A DNA stretch of 64,000 bases, taken from Buchnera aphidicola (Hyadaphis tataricae). Lineage in GTDB: Bacteria > Pseudomonadota > Gammaproteobacteria > Enterobacterales > Enterobacteriaceae. The stretch covers positions 372,001 to 436,000 of the forward strand of contig NZ_CP034873.1 in NCBI RefSeq assembly GCF_005081445.1. The letters run 5' to 3'. The position numbers and the translations under genes were made by a program. The notes beneath the pieces were generated by a model. It was not told the origin of the DNA. It did no database searches and was given only the letters and a program-made list of their open reading frames with translations. Shown in pieces: positions 8,567 to 21,053 of the stretch (position 1 is its first letter; each line of letters starts with the position of its first letter).

Positions 8567-9511
8567 ATGACTCTATTTGCAATGTTATTCCCAGGACAAG
8601 GTTCAGAATATATAGGCATGTTATCTTCATTTTCTTATAATAATTATATTATTAAACATACTTTTAACGAAGCATCAGATTATATAAAATTTAATTTACT
8701 AAAATTAGTAAAAGAAGGACCAAAAGAAAAACTGAATCAAAATCAGTATAAACAATCTGCAATATTAACCACATCTGTTGCGATATACCGACTATGGAGA
8801 AATAAATATGGAAAAATTCCATCATTAATATCAGGACATAGTCTTGGCGAATATTCTGCTTTAGTATGCGCTAAGTCTATCAAATTTTCTGATGCATTAA
8901 AGCTTGTTTTTTTGCGTGGTATATTAATGGAAAAAACAAGCATTAATCGTCCTGTTTTAATGAAAGCAATTATTGGTTTAGATCAGAAAAAAGTTGAAAA
9001 GGCTTGTTCAATTGCCTCAAAAAATGGCATTGTGAGTATAGCTAGCATTAATTCTCTAAACCAAATTGTTATTTCAGGAGATGCAAAAGCTGTATGTGAA
9101 GCTAGTCTATATTGCAAAAATATTGGCGCTAAAAATATACTACGACTAAACATCAATGTTCCAGCGCATTGTAAAATAATGAAACCAGTTTCTAAGAGAT
9201 TAAAAAAAATGTTAGATAGAATTCCTATATACTCTCCAATCATTCCAATTATTAACAATGTTGATGTGAAAATTGAATATAGTGAAAAAAACATTAAAAC
9301 TGCACTCATACGACAAATTTATCACTCTGTAAAATGGAACAATATTATTAATTTAATACAATTAAAAAAAATTTTTATAATGTTAGAAGTAGGACCTAAT
9401 AAAATTTTAACGAATTTAAATAAAAAAAATAAAAACATTATTTCATTGCATACCGATCGTTTAAACAATTTTTTACAAGCATTTAATTACATCAACAATC
9501 AAAATGAATAA
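8567..9511 (+). CDS. fabD: Malonyl-CoA:ACP transacylase
   Basis: FabD loads malonyl groups from malonyl-CoA onto acyl carrier protein for fatty acid synthesis. The 314-residue protein starts MTLFAMLFPGQGSEYIGML and has the nucleophile motif GHSLGEYSAL with Ser92, Arg117, and His201 in VPAHCKIMKP, all at the E. coli positions. AAAAGG lies 13 bases before the ATG. Its last codons overlap the fabG start, so the two are translationally coupled. The E. coli neighbours plsX and fabH upstream are missing. Confidence 0.96.
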   Translation: MTLFAMLFPGQGSEYIGMLSSFSYNNYIIKHTFNEASDYIKFNLLKLVKEGPKEKLNQNQYKQSAILTTSVAIYRLWRNKYGKIPSLISGHSLGEYSALVCAKSIKFSDALKLVFLRGILMEKTSINRPVLMKAIIGLDQKKVEKACSIASKNGIVSIASINSLNQIVISGDAKAVCEASLYCKNIGAKNILRLNINVPAHCKIMKPVSKRLKKMLDRIPIYSPIIPIINNVDVKIEYSEKNIKTALIRQIYHSVKWNNIINLIQLKKIFIMLEVGPNKILTNLNKKNKNIISLHTDRLNNFLQAFNYINNQNE

Positions 9512-10234
9512 AAAAAAAAAGTAGCCTTAGTTACTGGTGCGAGTCGTGGAATAGGAAGAGCAATTGCAAAAGAACTATCTAAACATGGCATTCAAATAAT
9601 TGGTACAGCCACAAATAAAAATGGTGTGAATATTATCAATAAATATTTAAAAAAAAATGGATTTGGTTTGATTTTAAAGCTTTCAACAGACAGCTCTATG
9701 AAGGAAGATATCAAGAAAATTTATCAAAAATATCAAATTGATATACTTATTAACAATGCAGGTACTACAAAAGATAATCTATTAATTAAAATGACTGAAA
9801 AAGAATGGTACGACGTTATTCAAATTAATTTAAACTCAATATTTTATTTAACAAAACATTGTATTAAATCTATGATACAAAAAAAATACGGAAGAATAGT
9901 AACAATTGGATCAATAATTGGGTATATAGGGAACAAAGGTCAAATAAATTATAGTACTTCAAAATCTGGATTGATAGGTTTTCATAAATCATTAGCATTA
10001 GAAGTTGCTTCAAAAGGGATTACTGTAAATATGGTTTCTCCAGGATTGATTAAAACAGATTTAACAAAAAATTTTCATGCTCAACAATATCAAAAATATT
10101 TATCGCTCATTCCAATGAAGAAACTAGGAGATCCTGAAGATATTGCTCATGCTGTTATGTTTTTAGTTTCTGAAAAAGCATCATATATAACTGGTCAGAC
10201 ATTACATGTTAACGGAGGTATGTTTATGGTATAA
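9504..10234 (+). CDS. fabG: 3-oxoacyl-ACP reductase FabG, frameshifted at a poly-A tract
   Basis: FabG reduces 3-oxoacyl-ACP with NADPH. The ATG at 9504 (overlapping the end of fabD) is followed by AAT and then 11 A residues (9510-9520). Read literally this hits a TAG at 9522. One more A would give M-N-K-K-K-K-VALVTGASRGIG, continuing with no further break to 10234: a 243-residue protein, the E. coli length being 244. The NADPH-binding TGASRGIG, NNAG, and catalytic YSTSK motifs are all intact in the shifted frame. The first standard start in that frame is a GTG at 9626, which would delete the nucleotide-binding motif. The gene is probably rescued by RNA polymerase slippage on the A tract; a sequencing error or early pseudogene are the alternatives. 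Confidence 0.85.
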
Positions 10235-10287: not shown

Positions 10288-10539
10288 ATGAATAAAATTG
10301 AAGAACGTATAAAAAAAATTATCATTGAAAAATTAGATATAGAAGAAAAAAAAGTTTTCAAAAACTCTTCCTTGATAGAAGATCTTGGAGCTGATTCACT
10401 TGACATAGTAGAATTAATTATGGCTTTAGAAGAAGAATTTGACATTGAAATTTCAGATGAAGAAGCAGAAAAAATCAATACAATAAATAATGCTATTGAA
10501 TACATTCAATATCGATTAAATAAAAATGCAAAAAAATAA
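10288..10539 (+). CDS. acpP: Acyl carrier protein
   Basis: AcpP carries growing acyl chains on a phosphopantetheine arm. The 83-residue acidic protein has the attachment motif GADSLD with Ser37, preceded by SSLIEDL and followed by the [16 protein letters not shown] helix. It is a few residues longer than E. coli AcpP at the C-terminus (RLNKNAKK), because its end overlaps tmk by 14 bases. fabF, pabC and mltG, which lie between acpP and tmk in E. coli, are gone. Confidence 0.96.
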
Positions 10540-20040: not shown

Positions 20041-21053
20041 ATGTTTTATTATTTCATTCGTAAACTATTATTTTTAATAGATCCAGAAAAAGCTCACATG
20101 TTCACGTTAAAGCAACTTCGCTCCAAAAAAATACAATTCTTAAAAAATTTTTTTTTAAGCCTAAAATCATCTCAAAAAATATAATATGTATGGGGTTAAA
20201 TTTCAGTAATAAATTAGGAAATGCAGCCGGAATAGATAAAAATGGTGAGTATATAAACGTCTTATCTCAAATAGGATTTGGATTTATCGAGGTAGGAACT
20301 GTGACTCCATTACCGCAATATGGCAATGCTAAACCAAGATTATTTAGGATTATTCCTGCAGAAGGCCTTATCAATAGAATGGGATTTCCTAATTTAGGAG
20401 TGGACAATTTAGTTAAAAATATACAACAGGCGCGTTTTCAAGGAATTCTTGGTATAAATATAGGAAAAAACAAAAATACTAGCATCAAAAACGCTGTTAA
20501 AGACTATTTAATTTGTATAGAAAAAACATATCTCTATGCCAGTTATATTGCTATTAATATTTCATCTCCTAATACTCATGATTTAACACAATTGCAATAC
20601 GGAAAAATATTTCAAAATTTGTTATATGCAATTAAAAAAAAACAAAGCGAATTGCACAAAAAATATTTAAAATATGTTCCAATAGCAATTAAAATTTCAC
20701 CAGATCTTTCCACAAAAGAATTATATCATATTGCTACAGAACTGATTAGACATGAAATAGATGGTATTATTGCGACAAATACAACATTAGATCATTCTTC
20801 AATAGTCGGTTTAACTAATAGCACAGAAAAAGGCGGTTTAAGTGGATTACCCTTACAAAAAAAAAGCACCAAAATAATTAACACATTGTCAAAAATTTTA
20901 AAGAACCAAATCCCTATTATTGGAGTAGGAGGTATCAATTCAATTGATTCTGCCAAAGAAAAAATACAATCAGGAGCAACTTTAATACAAATTTACTCTG
21001 GACTGATATATCAAGGACCACAAATTATTAGAAGTATTGTTGAAAAAACATGA
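20041..21053 (+). CDS. pyrD: Dihydroorotate dehydrogenase (class 2), apparently frameshifted
   Basis: PyrD oxidises dihydroorotate to orotate at the membrane using quinone. The ATG at 20041 follows AAAAGGAAT and encodes a good N-terminus ([21 protein letters not shown], matching the membrane-associated helices) but runs into a TAA at 20182. The catalytic domain is open in another frame up to the [15 protein letters not shown] region (ATG 20190) and on to 21053, with [22 protein letters not shown] and GVGGI intact. The start-to-CMG distance is 149 bases, against 147 in E. coli, so the sequence is one base short or two long. Homopolymers A7 (20125-20131), A6 (20142-20147) and T9 (20148-20156) lie exactly there. 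Initiation at 20190 alone would lose the N-terminal domain. Confidence 0.85.

Follow-up and report, generated by a model that had tools for sequence, protein, structure and literature searches.

In the window, by which we mean the whole 64-kb stretch of Buchnera DNA analysed, fabD is directly followed by a fabG that is out of frame with its own start codon. The source genome (G000 in our comparison) comprises 644,774 bases in 3 contigs. The features of the locus are as follows.

8567..9511, + strand: fabD, intact here, matching TIGR00128 above the cut-off.
9504..9524, + strand: the literal start of fabG, consisting of ATG, five more sense codons and TAG, as read from the sequence; the FabG frame has no in-frame ATG.
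9510..9520, + strand: a tract of 11 A (A11), one base short of frame, leaving a spacer of 17 nt, where 31 of 36 genomes have 18 nt.
9512..10234, + strand: the FabG frame (3-oxoacyl-ACP reductase), 240 codons and a stop, lacking a start codon of its own and identified with NCBIfam models and E. coli FabG (1i01).
9515..9521, + strand: A AAA AAG in the ATG frame, a heptamer of the dnaX type for -1 slips as judged from the sequence, with TAG directly after it.
10288..10539, + strand: the next gene downstream of fabG in the ORF list, presumably acpP.

The frame carrying VALVTGASRGIG is open from 9512 to 10234, and no additional stop or frame break was found across its 240 codons. Its product matches E. 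coli FabG 1i01 over residues 3-240 with 278.7 bits. The best NCBIfam models both score slightly below their cut-offs, NF004197 with 299.7 bits (cut-off 332) and TIGR01830 with 296.4 bits (cut-off 297.75). It should be noted that the in-frame FabG of a relative, G016, is also below both (302.2 and 294.8 bits, respectively), and that the in-frame FabG of G008 passes one of the two. As expected of a member of the FabG family, the sequence has an NADPH motif and the conserved active-site residues Ser, Tyr and Lys, which we take to be catalytic. The first-pass annotation described a reductase that is intact apart from being one base out of frame, and the profile and structure-sequence matches to a full-length FabG agree with this.

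The start of fabG reads ATG AAT A11 G TAG. In the ATG frame, ATG occupies 9504-9506 and AAT 9507-9509, followed by the A run at 9510-9520, G at 9521 and TAG at 9522-9524. We counted exactly 11 A, as the first-pass annotation had done. The same annotation let the gene stop after seven codons; the early stop exists, but the count is off by one, as six residues are encoded and the stop is the seventh codon. In the FabG frame, the stop just upstream is TAA at 9509-9511, which is the stop codon of fabD; its two A open the tract. Since the fabD stop uses these two A only, fabD is unchanged by lengthening or shortening of the tract. The first canonical start in the FabG frame is a GTG at 9626, past the NADPH motif. 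The window holds 44 A/T runs of at least 9 nt, five of them outside the listed ORFs, and the fabG tract is the longest and the sole one of 11 nt. A run of 11 A at approximately 26% GC is by itself no surprise; its placement exceeds chance. The locus shows the hallmark of a symbiont poly-A frameshift, namely a single indel in a long A/T run with the remaining gene open, and the loss of one A at the fabG start is in all likelihood a true lesion.

Two other ways of obtaining FabG were considered and rejected. An alternative start is not available, since from the fabD stop to the conserved core the FabG frame contains only AAA AAA AAA GTA and no in-frame ATG. Read-through of the fabD stop would give a FabD-FabG fusion in G000 and in G022, where the two genes share a frame. 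Such a fusion is not a common rescue, because fabD and fabG differ in frame in G023.

We found fabG in all 36 genomes of the genus compared. An in-frame ATG is present in 33 of these and absent from G000 (A11), G022 (A9) and G023 (A9), and six outgroup genomes, inspected by eye, all have one. The spacer between the nearest ATG and the conserved core is 17 nt in these three genomes, 12 nt in G024 and 15 nt in G033, and the comparison with the common length bears out the deficit of one A that was first proposed from the window alone. The start tract has at least 9 A in seven genomes: G000 (11), G010 (10), and G009, G012, G014, G022 and G023 (9 each). Three of these seven have fabG out of frame, versus none of the other 29 (Fisher p 0.0049, uncorrected for relatedness). 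Among 1,072 gene-genome pairs, an in-frame start is missing in 13, and a run of at least 9 is found there only in the three fabG cases. In a tree built from 11 concatenated proteins (3,725 columns, 36 genomes), G000 forms a lone long branch, G022 groups with the in-frame G018 and then with the in-frame G014, and G023 is sister to this trio. A Fitch count on the tree gives at least three independent changes of frame in fabG.

Other genes of fatty acid synthesis are affected as well. In ten of the 36 genomes, namely G001, G003, G005, G006, G008, G017, G020, G024, G025 and G035 (loci L123-L157), the frame of fabD is broken at a long A tract around codons 140-155, with at least six frame changes on the tree. 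Eight of the ten copies are one base short, and those of G001 and G024 are displaced in the opposite direction. In one clade, which includes the symbiont of the pea aphid, five of six members have fabD out of frame. The fabB gene is split at a corresponding place in two of the 36, G024 (A11) and G026 (A10) (loci L193 and L194). No genome has both the fabD and the fabG lesion, an absence of overlap that is not significant (approximately 0.36, calculated by hand).

We surveyed long runs in approximately 40 kb with 30 genes in the 36 genomes. In this survey, 26 of the 30 genes were counted, the four variable or decaying genes lpoB, rlmL, pncB and ompA-like being left out, and the values are descriptive rather than tests. 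At runs of at least 10, fabD is out of frame in 9 of 21 versus 4 of 181 in 24 other genes (p 1.3e-7, uncorrected for relatedness). At runs of at least 9, fabD and fabG together are out of frame in 13 of 93 versus 8 of 847 in the 24 other genes (p 4e-9, likewise uncorrected), and fabG alone in 3 of 52 versus the same 8 of 847, with a p of 0.02 only, again with relatedness uncorrected. For the other genes, the numbers out of frame are hand-entered (rluC 1, holB 2, pyrB 1, pyrD 4) and do not include the decayed pyrD of G026; the A11 run in pyrB of G011 may be absent from the run total.

Several single splits were seen elsewhere, in rluC of G016, in pyrB of G011 and in pyrD of G011, G030 and G034. 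In the sister genomes G019 and G035, holB loses its frame at an A11 run around codon 28 (loci L141 and L157). In the window, a T9 run (20148-20156) breaks the frame of pyrD (20041-21053), giving an N-terminal piece at 20041-20178 and a main piece from 20190; the two are in different frames, and each matches dihydroorotate dehydrogenase models. Within the second stretches compared, pyrD/pyrI gave no match in G015, G019 and G035. In G008, the bamA frame continues into the second half of fabZ (locus L195). A bamA-fabZ fusion has been described for the Tokyo strain alone, as a possible sequencing error (PMC3246468).

The out-of-frame copies of fabG do not evolve faster than the others. The terminal branch of FabG relative to that of the concatenate, on a fixed topology, is 1.01 in G000, 0.69 in G022 and 0.64 in G023, with a median of 1.12 over the 36 genomes. 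For pairs that include an out-of-frame copy, dN/dS of fabG is 0.14 (G018-G022), 0.18 (G014-G022), 0.15 (G014-G023) and 0.17 (G000-G016, dS near 1), as compared to 0.17-0.22 in seven pairs of in-frame copies and 0.07-0.44 for the other eleven genes in the same four pairs. There is no acceleration and dN/dS is low, and fabG therefore looks functional. The values indicate purifying selection on fabG despite the lesion, with a weight limited by the age of the lesion. As far as sequence comparison goes, they fit a maintained gene; similar values would be expected if the deletion were very recent, so they give no date for the lesion.

These results bear on the possibility that fabG in this genome is a young pseudogene and that the pathway of fatty acid synthesis, weakly needed in some hosts, is at an early stage of loss. 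We consider this unlikely. The Buchnera of one aphid subfamily lack the whole fab set, according to the parts of PMC11188193 available to us, convergent inactivation of genes such as murF at homopolymers is described for Buchnera in excerpts of PMC3164680, and out-of-frame fabD and fabB copies occur in the genus. However, fabD, fabG, PF00109 (KAS) and PF07977 (FabA/Z) are each found in 36 of 36 genomes, indicating that the pathway is kept, and the out-of-frame fabG copies show neither acceleration nor relaxed dN/dS. The first-pass annotation had expected FabG to be essential here. This is not established, as fabB, fabZ, acpS, fabI, fabD and fabG are among the genes reported lost from the Buchnera of Phyllaphidinae in the same portions of PMC11188193; that FabG is essential in this particular symbiont is a fair guess.

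On balance, we favour the reading that one A was really deleted at the fabG start, and that the deletion is tolerated via slippage of RNA polymerase, which would yield some in-frame mRNA. In brief, an ancestor of this Buchnera lineage would have lost one A from the tract just behind the start codon. RNA polymerase would then slip on A11, so that a share of the fabG messages has a tract length joining the ATG to the FabG frame. Messages with the frame restored would give the normal enzyme with a lysine-rich start, and the remaining messages a six-residue peptide. We suggest that fabG has not been lost because slippage yields some in-frame messages, and we infer that it does so at a rate that would supply enough FabG.

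Slippage at poly-A tracts, invoked as known Buchnera biology when the lesion was first noticed, is indeed in print (available portions of PMC5009743, PMC3017870, PMC3164680 and PMC5574713). According to the last of these, 151 of 157 transcription insertions in Buchnera are located in homopolymer runs, and the rates rise exponentially with run length up to 11 nt. For frameshifted genes of symbionts, 12-50% of the transcripts are corrected, as cited in a part of PMC5009743, and a value of 30% is cited in a part of PMC3017870. Against slippage speaks that, among the transcription errors of Buchnera LSR1, none was detected that restores a reading frame (PMC5574713, same portions). In a search of main texts, largely of open-access papers, we found no earlier description of the fabG case.

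Insertion of a nucleotide in the message would serve all three fabG lesions, eight of the ten in fabD and both in fabB. In total, 13 of 15 lesions run in this direction (sign test 0.007, uncorrected for relatedness), a bias that also fits a deletion bias of DNA in the tracts or a -1 slip of the ribosome.

The latter would take place on A AAA AAG just before TAG and carry translation from the ATG into FabG, which we regard as quite improbable. The heptamer at 9515-9521 has the right frame and direction, conforming to X XXY YYZ in the zero frame, and lysine tRNA slips on A AAA AAG in E. coli dnaX (PMC5009743, in the part available). A AAA AAA, likewise suitably framed, is found in G022 and G023. 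However, we did not find a stimulating stem-loop downstream; the 61 nt following the site fold no better than shuffles (z 0.43), and z is 1.40 for 113 nt. Neither did inspection by eye reveal a Shine-Dalgarno-like stretch upstream. In addition, a -1 slip cannot serve fabD in G001 and G024, because these lesions, two of the ten, run in the opposite direction.

Least probable of all is that the assembly dropped one A because a long homopolymer was misread in sequencing or in the consensus: such errors are typical, no run in the window is longer than the fabG tract and 454 reads are unreliable in poly-A rich regions of Buchnera (PMC3890641), but general under-calling is unlikely because 37 of the 39 coding A/T runs of at least 9 in the window lie in open frames (fabG A11 and pyrD T9 being the two that do not), and two other species carry the same lesion at the same place; a single wrong count at A11 may still have occurred.

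The fabG lesion, for which we favour slippage of RNA polymerase, resembles the poly(A)-tract frameshifts in Buchnera and Blochmannia studied by Tamas et al. 2008 and Wernegreen et al. 2010 (as reported in portions of PMC3017870, PMC5009743 and PMC3164680). As in those cases, the host of the tract is an AT-rich insect symbiont with a single indel in a long A run, and the gene is otherwise intact and conserved. Unlike in those cases, as far as the same portions describe them, the tract comes right after the start codon and shares bases with the stop codon of the gene upstream, and is here a candidate slippage site. In Buchnera from Aphidinae, six of eight genomes carry 8-18 homopolymeric frameshifts each, and murF is hit repeatedly (PMC3164680, in part). 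Here too, one gene has been struck recurrently and independently in long A runs, whereas fabG and fabD are not among the genes named in the available portions of the main text of that paper. With -1 frameshifting in E. coli dnaX, fabG shares A AAA AAG in frame and an adjoining stop codon; it differs in that no stem-loop was found, that the product would be the main enzyme and not a second form, and that the direction varies in fabD.

The fabG of this genome is a new case of the known habit of symbionts of living with long A runs, and copying slips in the RNA probably help. One might go further and speculate that the poly-A sites of fabD and fabG are a lasting state in Buchnera and not accidental, in which frames stay lost, proteins are conserved and slippage sets the output of fatty acid synthesis; we think this unlikely too. 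What is interesting and worth following is that fabD and fabG have lost their frames repeatedly. An annotation based on open frames would overlook this fabG or cut it short. If the rescue by slippage is true, an enzyme of basic metabolism in an obligate symbiont relies on RNA polymerase making errors within the first codons of its gene, and the fabD-fabG pair has taken that path repeatedly. With the fatty acid genes of the symbiont, one could then test directly whether poly-A frameshifts serve as a tuned device of expression or mark a first step of gene loss.
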